From contig CAJJAP010000007.1 in NCBI GenBank assembly GCA_905182185.1, forward strand, positions 122,524 through 186,523: DNA of 64,000 nt, in the 5' to 3' direction. This document shows, in pieces, positions 47,197 to 53,960 of the stretch. The notes beneath the pieces were generated by a model. The model was not told where the DNA came from, made no database searches, and was given only the letters and a program-made list of their open reading frames with translations. Origin of the DNA: an uncultured Candidatus Poseidoniales archaeon (GTDB lineage Archaea; Thermoplasmatota; Poseidoniia; Poseidoniales; Poseidoniaceae). The stretch's first letter is position 1; each line of letters begins with the position of its first letter. The position numbers and the translations under genes are program-made.

Positions 47197-48504
47197 GTGA
47201 GCCTTGACATAGGGCAGACTATGGAAGATGTTCGCCAATGGCTAAATTCCTCCAAGTCGAAAGGGATGGCTTTGGGTTTGCCCAATACCAAACAGGCACT
47301 CGATAGATTGAACCTAAAATTCGATAATACTCATATTTTCCATGTAGCAGGAAGTAATGGAAAAGGCACAACTTGTGCAATATTAGCCGCTTCAGTACAA
47401 CTCTCTGGCCATTCAGCCGTATTATTCTCATCACCGCATGTTAGTAGAATTGAAGAAAGAATTAGAATTGATGGAGTGCCAATTGCTAGTGATTTATTTG
47501 ATAGCGCATTAGCAGAAGTTAAGCAAATTAGTGAAGAAATTCCTATTATTGACTTGACTTTTTTTGAAATCACATATCTTTGTGCGATGGTTACGGCATC
47601 TAGTCACAATAGCGACGTATTAATTTTAGAAACTGGATTAGGCGGAAGACTAGATGCCACTAGAACTGCTCCGGCCGACACCTGCATCATCACTTCTATT
47701 TCGGCGGAGCACACCGAAATCTTAGGAGATGATATCTGCAAAATTGCACAGGAAAAGATTGCTATTGCAAGACCTGGCGTCAAAGTGATTATTCGCGACC
47801 CTGAAAATGAGGACATCAAAGCGGCAATGCGTGAGGAATGTCAAGCCGCTGGAAACATTGAACTTGGTGAAATACCGCTTCCAGCTCAACCTATTTTTGT
47901 TGAGATTCCACAGATGGTTACCACCCGACAAGAGGCCGCAATCCTTGTCGATCAGACATTGAAGAGAACCGGAATGGACACATCAACGGTATGGCAGGCA
48001 AAGAACTCAATTCGGTGGCCTGCTCGTATGCAATTTATTCCTGCTGGAAAAACAGGTGGCCATGAATTCTTGCTCGATGGAGCCCACAACCCAAGCGGCA
48101 TGGCTAGAGTAATGCCAGAGGTTGCAAATATGATTGAAAGTTACAAAATTCAAGCATGGTCGCTAGTTTTTGCAGCATCACCTCAGCAAGAAATGGACGC
48201 ATTCGTCGCCCCATTGCTTGAATATTGCCAAACAAACCCACCTCGTCAAATAATCATCACCGCTCCGCAAGGAGGGAGATATCCTGGCATTGAACCTCAA
48301 CAATTGATGAATCACTTCATGGCAATCGATTGTGAAATATCCGCAGTAGAATATCCCGAGAGTGCATTATCCATAATAGAGGACAAAGAACCGTATGAAG
48401 TTGGACTAATCGTCAGCCTTGGCTCTATGTATTTACAAGGAAATATACTCGGTTTGTTATACCTTGATAGCGATGAGGACCTAAGTTTGCTAGCGAAGAG
48501 ATGA
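47197..48504 (+). CDS. folC: Folylpolyglutamate synthase / Mur-ligase family protein (GTG start)
   Basis: FHVAGSNGKGTTCAILAASVQLSGHSAVLFSSPHV, ILETGLGGRLDATR, LDGAHNPSGM. Confidence 0.92.
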   Translation: MSLDIGQTMEDVRQWLNSSKSKGMALGLPNTKQALDRLNLKFDNTHIFHVAGSNGKGTTCAILAASVQLSGHSAVLFSSPHVSRIEERIRIDGVPIASDLFDSALAEVKQISEEIPIIDLTFFEITYLCAMVTASSHNSDVLILETGLGGRLDATRTAPADTCIITSISAEHTEILGDDICKIAQEKIAIARPGVKVIIRDPENEDIKAAMREECQAAGNIELGEIPLPAQPIFVEIPQMVTTRQEAAILVDQTLKRTGMDTSTVWQAKNSIRWPARMQFIPAGKTGGHEFLLDGAHNPSGMARVMPEVANMIESYKIQAWSLVFAASPQQEMDAFVAPLLEYCQTNPPRQIIITAPQGGRYPGIEPQQLMNHFMAIDCEISAVEYPESALSIIEDKEPYEVGLIVSLGSMYLQGNILGLLYLDSDEDLSLLAKR

Positions 48505-48539
48505 AACAAGGACAGGGTTAGCAAGGATCGGGTGAGGAC

Positions 48540-49016
48540 ATGAAAGACAAGCATTTGGCAATCCGGATTCAACAATGCTTAGCTTTGGCAGAGGCTTCTA
48601 ATTGCCCTCGCAGGAAATTCGGCGCACTATTGGTTGATCCGGCGAGAAATGTAATCTTGATGGATGGCTACAATGGTGGACCAAGAGGTGGAGGACGCCT
48701 TTGTGGTGGTGAAGAATGTTTGAGAGATAGCCAAAGCGTAGTATCTGGCACACGGGTTGAAATCGGTTGCCACCATGCTGAAATGAATTTGATTTGTAAT
48801 GCTGCAGCTAATGGAGTATCTACCAATGGTGCATGGCTAATCGTTACCGGCGAGCCTTGTATGATGTGCGCTAAACTAATACACCATTCTGGGATTTCAA
48901 AGGTTGTTATCGTCGATGGCGGTTTCATGGGAGAAAATGGTGTAGGCTATCTAGGCGAACATGGTATTGAGATTCAAAGTGTTGATGGACCAAAAGACCC
49001 TAGAGGACAGGATTAG
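48540..49016 (+). CDS. dCMP deaminase family protein
   Basis: CPRRKFGALLVDP, HHAEMNLICNAA, GEPCMMCAKLIHHSGISKVV. Confidence 0.92.
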   Translation: MKDKHLAIRIQQCLALAEASNCPRRKFGALLVDPARNVILMDGYNGGPRGGGRLCGGEECLRDSQSVVSGTRVEIGCHHAEMNLICNAAANGVSTNGAWLIVTGEPCMMCAKLIHHSGISKVVIVDGGFMGENGVGYLGEHGIEIQSVDGPKDPRGQD

Positions 49017-49072: not shown

Positions 49073-49118
49073 TGGTATGGGCGTGACAGTCATATGCAAG
49101 CCCCAACTCGCATCTGTT

Positions 49119-51308
49119 ATGAGCGACGATGATGAGTCCGGTAATACGGACCGCGATATTTCCGATAAATTCGCTGCAATCGAAAGAGAACTTCGTGCTG
49201 AATCGTTTTTTGATTCAATAAAAGATCAGTTACCCGGAATGTTTGGAATGGCATTTATGTTCGTCATTACCATTCTAATAGCCCTTTTTATCAGACCTTG
49301 GTATGATATTGCCGGCCTACATGCATTTGGAGAAGAAGGTGCCACTCAAGTCAAATATATCGCAATGGAATTGTCTTTTATCTTTATTTTTACCGGAGTG
49401 ATTTTACTTTTGGCCAAATACAAAAAAGACTGGATTATCAAATATGGAATAATGGGAATTTTAGCAATGGCATTGATGTACTCAACAGTACCTCTCGCTC
49501 ATATGATGGTAATCGATTTTGATGCTGAACCGTTTGAATACGATGCTGCATCAACCCATACCAGTGAATCATATCTTGTAAATTATGGAATGGAAGGCTT
49601 ACTGACAGCGGAATTGACTGGAGAAGCCGATGGTCCTTGGAACGATTCTGTAAGTTATTGGCATGGTCAGCCGTTTGATGGCGAACCTGTATGGCAGATT
49701 GACCAGCAACGCAGCCCTGGAAACGACCTAGGCGATACAAGAGTTGTACTAAATGGTAATATTGCAACATTTACAAACGGTGTTTGGATTTGGACTATCG
49801 ATATTGATAGTGGTGAAAAATTGAACACATATGCTTGTCACGAAATAGATGAGGTTCAAGGATTAATCCCCCTACCAAATATGCACACTGCTTGTTCTTT
49901 AGCAGTTCTAATCGATGATTCAATGTATGTGGTTTCCACCGATGACTCCCTATTCCATTACAAGGTTTTTGAAGAACAATTAATGGTATATCAAGCAGCA
50001 TGGGCATTACCAACTAACATTGGCATTACAGAAGGAGTCCTATATTCTGAAGTCATTTCTGAGAACAGATTACTAATCACCACTCCAACACAAGTATGTA
50101 TTGTTGAATTAGAAGAAACAAATAAAGCACTATTATCTCTACTCGAGATTGAACCTGCTACAACTGCATTCGTAAGAAATTCTACCGGATATTATGTAAG
50201 TTCTGATTTCGGGCATTCACCATGGTCTGACGTTACAATGGAAAATGCTAGTGCAGATACAGGATTTATCCTACTTGGAGAAAATAATGGCAATGTTCTT
50301 GGGTTTGAATGGAATCAATCCGCTGAAGTTGAGGTCGTGGAACAAACAAAAATGCATTTGATGGATTTTGCTGAAACTATTCAATCTGCTAGATTAACCG
50401 ACTTGGATGTTTCTGGTATGACTGACATGCTCATCACCACAGGTGATACAGCGCACTGGCTTCATGGCCAGGCACTGGTTAACAGAATTTCATTCCCTGT
50501 TGATGATAATTTCGCAACTGGTTATTTTGTTGAAGATTCAAACACCAGTTCTCAATTTGTAGCAATTTACGATGATGATGGTTCTACTGCTAAACATGGA
50601 GAAGTAACAGGTGAAATGATGACAATATCCGGATTACAATTGTATGATGGACCATTTCTGGTTGGAGTTATCGTTGCTATTGCATTAATGATTTTACTAT
50701 ATGTTCACAGTGAATGGTATGTGGTCAACACAGTTGGAGTATTGGTTGGCTCAGGGGTCATAGTAATGCTCGGTGTTGCTTTCGTTCCTTCACTGATTAT
50801 CATCTTCATGGTAGTGGCAGCGATATATGATGCATGGGCGGTTTACAAGTCCAAACATATGCTCGCCTTAGCCGATACGATGATTAATTTACGATTACCA
50901 ATTCTGCTAGTTGCTCCTCAAAGCAAAGGATATTCATTCAAGGAAGGTCAAACATCAATTAGCGATAAAGGTGAAGAAATGCCTGCTCAGTCATCTGCTC
51001 AAACAACTACTAAAAAAGCCAAGAAAAATGGTGGAGAAGCGATGTTTATGGGACTTGGAGATGTCATATTCCCTGGAATATTAGTCCTTTCATGCGCTCA
51101 ATGGCTCGATGAGTCAGTGGCAATACCTGTCGCAATGGGAGCATTGGTCGGTGGCCTATGTGGATATGCAGCACTGATGTATTTCGTTGCCCAAGGGAAA
51201 GCACAAGCAGGATTACCTCTGCTCAATGGTGGGGCAATCTTAGGATACTTAATCACAGGATTATTCTTCATTGGAACATCGTTACTAGATTTCGGAATTA
51301 GTTGGTGA
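49119..51308 (+). CDS. Presenilin/SPP-like GxGD intramembrane aspartyl protease homologue with large ectodomain (ORF opens at 49077)
   Basis: YD motif AAIYDAWAVYKSKHM (codons 50826-50831), GLGD motif MGLGDVIFPGI (51051-51062), terminal AGLPLLNGGAILGYL; multiple TMs. Confidence 0.75.
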   Translation: MSDDDESGNTDRDISDKFAAIERELRAESFFDSIKDQLPGMFGMAFMFVITILIALFIRPWYDIAGLHAFGEEGATQVKYIAMELSFIFIFTGVILLLAKYKKDWIIKYGIMGILAMALMYSTVPLAHMMVIDFDAEPFEYDAASTHTSESYLVNYGMEGLLTAELTGEADGPWNDSVSYWHGQPFDGEPVWQIDQQRSPGNDLGDTRVVLNGNIATFTNGVWIWTIDIDSGEKLNTYACHEIDEVQGLIPLPNMHTACSLAVLIDDSMYVVSTDDSLFHYKVFEEQLMVYQAAWALPTNIGITEGVLYSEVISENRLLITTPTQVCIVELEETNKALLSLLEIEPATTAFVRNSTGYYVSSDFGHSPWSDVTMENASADTGFILLGENNGNVLGFEWNQSAEVEVVEQTKMHLMDFAETIQSARLTDLDVSGMTDMLITTGDTAHWLHGQALVNRISFPVDDNFATGYFVEDSNTSSQFVAIYDDDGSTAKHGEVTGEMMTISGLQLYDGPFLVGVIVAIALMILLYVHSEWYVVNTVGVLVGSGVIVMLGVAFVPSLIIIFMVVAAIYDAWAVYKSKHMLALADTMINLRLPILLVAPQSKGYSFKEGQTSISDKGEEMPAQSSAQTTTKKAKKNGGEAMFMGLGDVIFPGILVLSCAQWLDESVAIPVAMGALVGGLCGYAALMYFVAQGKAQAGLPLLNGGAILGYLITGLFFIGTSLLDFGISW

Positions 51309-51313
51309 AAATA

Positions 51314-52603
51314 ATGCTTGATATTACTTTGTTTAGAGAAAACCCGCAGGTGATATTTGCGGATCACGATAAGCGTGGTATCGTACATGATAAAGTTCAA
51401 CAAGTGATTGACCTGGACCTTAAGTGGAGAGATTTACAACATCAAACCAACCAACTGAGGCAACAAAAGAATGCCGCTGCTCGGGGCATTGGAGAAGCGA
51501 TGAAATCGGGAAACCGTGATGAAGCAGAGAAGATTAAGGCTCAAGTTGCAGATTTAGGAACAAAAATTAGTGCAGCAGAAAGTGCAACCGATGAAGCTCT
51601 TGCTCAAAGGGATAAGATTAGGATGACAATTCCAAATATTCTTCATCCAGATGTACCAGTAGGTGATGACGAAGGCGGTAATACACAACACAGCGTTCAT
51701 GGTCAAAAACCAATTTTTGATTTTGAACCTCGCACTCATAACGAATTAATTGAACTCAATAAATGGGTTGATTTGAAACGAGCAGCAAAGATTGTTGGTT
51801 CACGTTTCTTCTTCCTAAAGGGCGACTTGGCTCGCTTAGAATTCGCATTACAACAATACTCAGTCGAGTTCATTCGCCAAAGGGGCTTCACTTTCGTTCA
51901 GCCCCCTGCTATGATGAATAGAGAAGCCTACGAAGGTGTTACTGACTTGGCTGACTTTGAGACTGTGATGTATGGAGTTGAACCTGAACAATTCTACATG
52001 ATAGCAACCGCAGAACACCCATTAACAGCGATGTTCATGAATGAGACTATCCCTGAAGAACAATTACCATTGAAAATAGTTGCTGTTTCTCCATGTTTCC
52101 GCAGGGAAGTAGGTTCACACGGTCAATCCGATTTAGGGATTTGGCGAGTCCATCAATTCACAAAAGTTGAGCAAATCGTTTTCGCAACACCAGAGCAATC
52201 ATGGCAAATTCAAGAAGAATTATTACAAAATTGTGTCGACTTGTGGGATAGTTTGTCGATTCATTACGAAGTGGTCAATATCTGCACCGGCGATATGGGG
52301 ACTGTTGCGGCAAGAAAGTACGATCTTGAAGCATGGATTCCAGGTGCTAACCAATACAAAGAAATCGTCTCTTGTTCAAACTGTACCGATTATCAAGCCA
52401 ATAGATTGAACATTCGCTATGGCCAACCAGGCCATGCTGGACAACCTATTGCACATACTCTAAATTCTACTGCTGTGGCTACTAGTCGCGCATTAGTTGC
52501 AATAATGGAACAGAATCAACTTGAAGATGGTAGTGTTAAAGTTCCTGAATGCTTAGTACCATTGATGGGTGGTAAAACCCATCTAGAACCTTGCCAATGG
52601 TGA
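51314..52603 (+). CDS. serS: Seryl-tRNA synthetase
   Basis: N-terminal coiled-coil arm, TAEHPLTAMFMNETI, SPCFRREVGSHGQSDLGIWRVHQFTKVEQ. Confidence 0.96.
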   Translation: MLDITLFRENPQVIFADHDKRGIVHDKVQQVIDLDLKWRDLQHQTNQLRQQKNAAARGIGEAMKSGNRDEAEKIKAQVADLGTKISAAESATDEALAQRDKIRMTIPNILHPDVPVGDDEGGNTQHSVHGQKPIFDFEPRTHNELIELNKWVDLKRAAKIVGSRFFFLKGDLARLEFALQQYSVEFIRQRGFTFVQPPAMMNREAYEGVTDLADFETVMYGVEPEQFYMIATAEHPLTAMFMNETIPEEQLPLKIVAVSPCFRREVGSHGQSDLGIWRVHQFTKVEQIVFATPEQSWQIQEELLQNCVDLWDSLSIHYEVVNICTGDMGTVAARKYDLEAWIPGANQYKEIVSCSNCTDYQANRLNIRYGQPGHAGQPIAHTLNSTAVATSRALVAIMEQNQLEDGSVKVPECLVPLMGGKTHLEPCQW

Positions 52604-52607
52604 TTAT

Positions 52608-53960
52608 ATGCGTTGTCTTTTCCTATCTTTATTGCTTGTACTCGCCCCTTTGAGTGGGTGCTTCGGAGAAGATGCTGGAGATGATGTTGCGCCAACTCTG
52701 AGTGTCGCTGATGTTTCCATGGCTATTCGTGGACAATACATGACTATCGAAGTGGATTCGAATGTGGATTGGACATTCAATCGATCTGCAGGATTGTTCT
52801 ATGTAGATGAGTTTGGTGTACTAAGAGACCCTTTGACAACTACATTCCCTGCAGAAAAGAAATCACTTGAATTATTGATACTGGACAGTGAGAGAGAATC
52901 TGTTGACATTTCAGTTACTGCAGGTGACGAATTCTGGAATGCAACCCTAATGCTTGAAGATAGTCAAGAAATGATGCTTGTAGATGGTAGGCGTGCTTAC
53001 GATACTATCGATATGTTAACCAGTTCACACAACAACAGATGGTGTGCTAGTGCATCGGTTCACGAAGGTGGTTCTGCATACGAAGCTGCGGCTGAAGCAA
53101 TGGCTGAAGATATGAGGGAAATGGGATTCGATTTCGTTGAAGTAACTCGATACGATGATGACCCTGACCAATTGAATGTTGTTGGCTACAATTGGGGTAG
53201 AACAAATCCTGACGAATACATAGTCGTAGGAGGTCATTTCGATATTGCTTACTTATTCACGCCACCAGGAGGAGGTACAAACGAAGGCGCAAATGATGAC
53301 ACTTCAGGATCTACTGTGTCCTTAGAAATGGCTCAAGCATTGGCCAAGATGGAGTTCGATCATACTGTTGTTGCAGCATTGTGGGCATGTGAAGAGGAAG
53401 GGCTTCTAGGCTCTTCGGCATATGTTAACCACTTACCTGAAAATGTGACAGTAAAGTCGTACCTGAACTTCGACATGGTTTCTCTGAACTACCCAATCAT
53501 ACCTGCATCAGAACCAATTATCGGCCCGGGTGGAGAAGTTTTCTCTGCAACAAAATACGAATGGCAGATTAGTATTGCTGGTGCAAGTGAGAGCAATATG
53601 CAGACAATGTACGAGTGGGTTGGAACTACAATAGAAGATGACCTTTCATACAGACCAACAGAGGCAAATCCGATTAATTGGCTGATTGCAGAATCATGTG
53701 CTTCAGACCACTGTGCGTTCTTTTCTGCTGACTTCCCTACTTTCAACTTCTTCAGCCCTGGCGGAGAAATTTCATTCTGGCAAGAATGGCACTCGCCATC
53801 AGATACACTAGATTTCATGACTGCTAAAGCTGGTGGGCAAGAAGGAATGTCGAGTGGTTTCAACAGTCTTGTTTGGTCATCACTCGACCTCTTCGTACGA
53901 ATTGATAATTCTGATGATTCATTCCAAGGTCGTTGGTATTCAGCCCCTGCTGAAGAATAA
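52608..53960 (+). CDS. Secreted M28-family metallopeptidase (lipoprotein)
   Basis: Lipobox LSGC; VVGGHFDIAY...GANDDTSGSTVSLEMAQAL, ALWACEEEGLLGSSAYV. Confidence 0.9.
   Translation: MRCLFLSLLLVLAPLSGCFGEDAGDDVAPTLSVADVSMAIRGQYMTIEVDSNVDWTFNRSAGLFYVDEFGVLRDPLTTTFPAEKKSLELLILDSERESVDISVTAGDEFWNATLMLEDSQEMMLVDGRRAYDTIDMLTSSHNNRWCASASVHEGGSAYEAAAEAMAEDMREMGFDFVEVTRYDDDPDQLNVVGYNWGRTNPDEYIVVGGHFDIAYLFTPPGGGTNEGANDDTSGSTVSLEMAQALAKMEFDHTVVAALWACEEEGLLGSSAYVNHLPENVTVKSYLNFDMVSLNYPIIPASEPIIGPGGEVFSATKYEWQISIAGASESNMQTMYEWVGTTIEDDLSYRPTEANPINWLIAESCASDHCAFFSADFPTFNFFSPGGEISFWQEWHSPSDTLDFMTAKAGGQEGMSSGFNSLVWSSLDLFVRIDNSDDSFQGRWYSAPAEE

Follow-up and report, generated by a model that had tools for sequence, protein, structure and literature searches.

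A presenilin-family intramembrane protease of Marine Group II archaea with a predicted beta-propeller between TM3 and TM4

The open reading frame at 49119-51308 of the window (the whole stretch of 64,000 nucleotides analyzed here) is, as judged from its sequence, a true PSH-family GxGD intramembrane protease, and the domain inserted between its third and fourth transmembrane segments (TMs) is probably a seven-bladed beta-propeller with one disulfide. The first-pass annotation had described a presenilin/SPP homologue with a large insert between N-terminal and catalytic TMs. Curated family models and the solved structure 4hyc confirmed the homology, and the insert was real, covering about residues 132-508 in the numbering of the 729-residue protein (150-520 in the first-pass annotation). 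Membership of the PSH family is not new, and NCBI's model would name this protein. A presenilin-family protease with an in-cis TM3-TM4 propeller was undescribed in the full-text literature searched; Raut et al. 2021 was outside the scope of that search, and an earlier notice is possible.

Reading frame and catalytic core

The frame starting at 49119 contained no internal stop and encoded 729 residues. The length of 743 residues previously given for it belongs to a version starting at an upstream ATG at 49077. The start at 49119 was favored by the relatives, whose proteins begin there. The motifs IYDAW, MGLGDVIFP, and LPLLNGG and both Asp codons (50829 and 51060) were found where the first-pass annotation had placed them. 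Positions of all features are listed in Table 1.

Table 1. Positions, in the window, of the PSH gene, its parts, and its conserved neighbors
Feature	Position	Strand	Basis
FolC-like Mur ligase, conserved 5' neighbor of PSH	47197..48504	+	Pfam Mur_ligase; synteny
PSH-family GxGD intramembrane aspartyl protease gene (729 aa plus stop)	49119..51308	+	translation, profile matches, PDB homologue
TM1-TM3, helices 30-65, 78-100, 104-131	49206..49511	+	AlphaFold model, hydropathy
Inserted, predicted extracytoplasmic beta-propeller, residues 134-506, TM3-TM4 loop	49518..50636	+	AlphaFold, Foldseek, net charge about -50
Cys240, presumed disulfide	49836..49838	+	invariant in 58/58 relatives
Cys259, presumed disulfide	49893..49895	+	invariant in 58/58 relatives
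DLDVSG, residues 428-433, FG-GAP-like possible Ca2+ loop	50400..50417	+	pattern in 53/58 Poseidoniaceae ectodomains
TM4-TM6, helices 510-529, 533-552, 557-577	50646..50849	+	AlphaFold model
Catalytic Asp571, YD motif (IYDAW), TM6	50829..50831	+	invariant, 58 relatives
TM7-TM9, helices 646-662, 665-691, 698-717	51054..51269	+	AlphaFold model
Catalytic Asp648, GLGD motif (MGLGDVIFP), TM7	51060..51062	+	invariant, 58 relatives
LPLLNGG at PAL position, residues 699-705	51213..51233	+	L699-L701 invariant, 58 relatives
Seryl-tRNA synthetase (SerS), conserved 3' neighbor of PSH	51317..52603	+	Pfam tRNA-synt_2b, Seryl_tRNA_N; synteny

The protein scored 223 bits against NCBIfam NF041679 (presenilin family intramembrane aspartyl protease PSH; curated cut-off 125, E = 5e-66). 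In hmmscan, it matched Pfam SPP (PF06550; 180.6 bits, cut-off 23.9, E = 6e-53) and Peptidase_A22B (E = 3.5e-6), while Presenilin sensu stricto (PF01080) stayed under its cut-off (18.2 vs 34.3 bits). Only PSH entries, 4hyc and its sisters, were matched in the PDB by phmmer, and 4hyc aligned over residues 517-715 with an E-value of 2.3e-33. None of the transporter families scored against the frame. The family profile aligned as two segments separated by the insert (profile positions 3-78 and 92-281), indicating that the insert sits within the family's own domain.

The conserved Asp residues of the YD and GxGD motifs were placed in adjacent predicted TMs, with D571 inside helix 557-577 (TM6) and D648 near the start of helix 646-662 (TM7) of the AlphaFold2 model, and a PAL-like motif was present before the last TM. 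D571, D648, GLGD, and the L-P-L at the PAL position were all invariant among 58 full-length relatives.

Predicted topology and fold

The full-length AlphaFold2 model, built with the 58 aligned relatives, had a mean pLDDT of 80 and a pTM of 0.66. It contained nine long helices, with a large beta region between helices 3 and 4. A short helix (580-591) and strands at 596-598 and 643-645 were also modeled, which we take to correspond in place to TM6a and the substrate-pairing strands of presenilin; residues 603-639 were of low confidence. In the fold search with the full-length model, only propeller-type matches were listed, and thus this search has no bearing on the membrane fold.

Across the 58 relatives, the TM2-TM3, TM6-TM7, and TM8-TM9 loops were net positive, and the TM1-TM2 and TM7-TM8 loops and the ectodomain were net negative, the ectodomain reaching about -50. 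By the positive-inside rule, these charges suggest a cytoplasmic N-terminus and an external insert, which is the orientation of presenilin. The N-terminal tail was slightly acidic and gave no help to this reading. C240 and C259 were invariant (58/58) and nearly the only cysteines of the ectodomain, and the pair fits a presumed extracellular disulfide. Location of the ectodomain on the extracytoplasmic side is therefore supported by both the charge and the cysteine pair.

The insert comprised about 375 of the 729 residues. Modeled alone with AlphaFold, the ectodomain was nearly all beta, with a pLDDT of 90.9 and a pTM of 0.90. About 28 strands were present, which suits seven blades of four strands each, with an N-terminal strand completing the closure, the count of seven being assigned from strand order only. 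The top PDB matches in Foldseek were propellers (WD40 proteins and BamB; E about 7e-9, TM-score about 0.5), with identities of 6-13% among the matches listed. The earlier remark on propeller-like blades thus holds at the level of the predicted fold. The ectodomain sequence gave nothing significant against Pfam or the PDB, and known propeller families (WD40, PQQ, FG-GAP) appeared only as sub-threshold Pfam matches in single members.

When the window protein was compared with three close relatives, dN/dS was 0.18-0.26 for the ectodomain and 0.09-0.11 for the catalytic part, and the ectodomain is clearly under purifying selection, though weaker than that on the catalytic part. Its invariant residues were mostly W, G, C, and P. 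Since these are mainly structural, they mark no enzyme-like active site and no obvious peptide-docking site. A DxDxSG loop, which is typical of Ca2+-binding FG-GAP blades, was found in 53/58 Poseidoniaceae ectodomains (mean of 0.16 after shuffling), and in 0/13 of the ectodomains examined from the sister family, which we take from established taxonomy to be Thalassarchaeaceae.

Distribution and history of the long and short forms

The named relatives from GTDB genomes belonged to Candidatus Poseidoniaceae and Poseidonia, that is, Marine Group II, and the source genome is itself a member of Candidatus Poseidoniaceae. A PSH match was present in 138 of the 146 Poseidoniaceae genomes sampled; every one of the 21 high-quality genomes had it. 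With few exceptions, these frames were about 680-1000 aa; the shorter ones resembled gene fragments, and several lay at the ends of contigs. Poseidoniaceae almost always have the long form. Three loci in metagenome-assembled contigs carried frame-broken or stretched PSH genes, probably by assembly or sequencing errors. A record titled Verrucomicrobiales bacterium (NZEQ01000067.1, locus L177, 3501-5696) carried a PSH locus from Poseidoniaceae, flanked by the usual genes, and is a mislabeled or contaminated genome.

In the sister family, four genera had the long form and the other seven the short form. The length of the TM3-TM4 insert was bimodal: 370-404 residues in Poseidoniaceae and 358-373 in the long form of the sister family, against 2-11 in the short form. 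Part of one short-form genus had 52 residues in this loop. In three loci, the approximately 52 extra residues were mostly hydrophobic and resembled an added transmembrane hairpin.

The order FolC-PSH-SerS was kept in both families at every locus with enough flank, whether PSH was long or short, so that the two forms are most likely orthologous. In the tree of the membrane part, from which the insert was excluded, the short forms of the sister family made one clade (98/92), and monophyly of the sister family was not rejected (AU p = 0.27). The ectodomains of both families were homologous (hhalign probability 99.5, E = 1.5e-22). Taken together, the homologous ectodomains, the single short clade, and the shared locus make an ancestral ectodomain with one loss the simplest history. 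We concluded that the ectodomain was most likely present in the ancestor of Marine Group II and was lost once in the sister family; taken by itself, the gene tree is compatible also with gain.

A stand-alone propeller was absent from 16 short-form genomes, and all three long-form genomes used as the positive control were matched. A second propeller copy was found nowhere else in the source genome (63% complete). Nothing therefore indicates that the domain has become separated as a gene of its own.

Some local rearrangement was observed around PSH. FolC and the dCMP-deaminase (47197-49016) were on the same strand as PSH at seven loci of the window's clade, whereas all the other Marine Group II loci had the pair on the opposite strand, which points to a local inversion of two genes. 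In the window's clade and some Poseidonia, an M28-family peptidase with a lipoprotein-like N-terminus (52608-53957 in the window) lay two genes downstream of PSH. Nicastrin has an M28-like fold. The peptidase was considered as a nicastrin-like partner and set aside as speculative, because it was adjacent in some clades only and several M28 genes were present in the genome.

Elsewhere in Thermoplasmatota, the TM3-TM4 loop had mostly 0-16 residues, and several families had 227-367. Inserts of 219-367 residues were seen at eight of our loci, some of them FG-GAP- or propeller-like. Comparison with the Marine Group II ectodomain gave no credible kinship for them (hhalign probability 1.4 or less). 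One, at L072, was matched by hmmsearch at 3e-4 in a small database, a match that hhalign did not confirm. For the inserts outside Marine Group II, one common origin was neither demonstrated nor rejected (AU p = 0.19); they may be independent insertions or ancient and diverged.

Possible function of the ectodomain and comparison with known systems

The reading that we prefer, at about an even chance, is that the protein would be an active PSH-type protease with nine TMs, whose propeller roofs the active site to recruit substrates or to filter them by size. The propeller would hang above the external opening of the active site, where it would select the membrane proteins or remnant TM segments that reach the Asp pair, by docking the extracellular stubs of substrates, by sterically barring large ectodomains, or by both. 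Anchored through TM3 at one end and TM4 at the other, and predicted to lie on the outer side of the membrane, it is suited to such gating. One chain would then cover the task that falls to nicastrin for presenilin, to the PA domain in SPPL2, and to the PDZ domains in RseP. Nicastrin bars substrates from gamma-secretase if their ectodomains are too large (PMC6551803), the PA domains of SPPL2 proteases help to discriminate substrates by their lumenal part (PMC12043953), and for RseP, a size-exclusion filter formed by the PDZ domains has been discussed (PMC7728848). Two points speak against this reading: sister genera manage without the propeller, suggesting that the domain is not needed for catalysis, and the conserved residues of the ectodomain mark no obvious docking site for peptides.

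A different role, which we consider doubtful, is that of a ligand sensor, in which an extracellular peptide, glycan, or Ca2+ would switch the protease allosterically through TM3 and TM4. Propellers often bind ligands, both ends of the domain join these two TMs directly, and Poseidoniaceae conserve the DxDxSG loop characteristic of Ca2+-binding FG-GAP blades; however, it is missing from the 13 Thalassarchaeaceae ectodomains, and the invariant residues of the ectodomain show no conserved polar pocket. The propeller might instead be a module for adhesion or scaffolding, which binds the S-layer or a partner protein and positions the protease with no part in substrate choice. The Foldseek neighbors are mainly protein-interaction propellers, and propellers are frequent on archaeal surface proteins (PMC10354927, PMC5498576), but mere tethering would not need a domain embedded inside the catalytic core instead of at a terminus, and we hold this role to be still more doubtful. 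That the membrane part is a dead homologue, or the long frame an assembly or fusion artefact, is highly improbable, because no point in its support was found, the catalytic and PAL-position residues are invariant in the 58 relatives, and the same architecture, here in a frame without internal stops, recurs in many separately named assemblies and throughout Poseidoniaceae.

The wider proposal, that Marine Group II possesses a single-chain functional counterpart of presenilin-nicastrin in which the propeller gates substrates, and that the TM3-TM4 loop was given different domains several times in Thermoplasmatota, which would make it a place where evolution has repeatedly added control over substrates, is put forward tentatively, at less than even confidence. 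The role of the presenilin-homologue enzyme of Haloferax was given as unknown in a 2022 review (PMC9263693). Because sister genera carry either a long or a short orthologue at one shared locus, they form a natural and clean comparative system, and with a one-subunit enzyme one can ask whether the ectodomain sets the size and identity of substrates, as proposed for nicastrin and the SPPL2 PA domain.

Among known systems, the catalytic half of the window protein is homologous to that of the archaeal PSH/MCMJR1 of Methanoculleus marisnigri (PDB 4hyc, 4hyd, 4hyg, 4y6k; 2.3e-33). Both have YD and GxGD, the motif at the PAL position, and the nine-TM layout, but 4hyc has 301 residues and the window protein adds about 375 as the predicted TM3-TM4 propeller. 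With presenilin-nicastrin in gamma-secretase, it has in common the GxGD chemistry, a presenilin-like predicted topology, and, on that same side of the membrane, a sizeable globular domain predicted to be extracellular. Nicastrin forms a type I subunit of its own, which is neither inserted in presenilin nor a propeller. A widespread marine lineage has a presenilin-family enzyme bearing its own ectodomain, whereas human presenilin, the subunit whose cutting gives rise to the amyloid of Alzheimer's disease, uses a separate partner protein. The ectodomain shares its predicted fold with WD40, BamB, and FG-GAP propellers, but by sequence neither Pfam nor the PDB gave a significant match to it. SPPL2, like the window protein, combines a GxGD protease and an extracytoplasmic domain in one chain, and its domain affects substrate choice (PMC12043953); the SPPL2 PA domain, however, is N-terminal, before TM1, and of another fold, and the predicted membrane orientation is opposite to that of the window protein.
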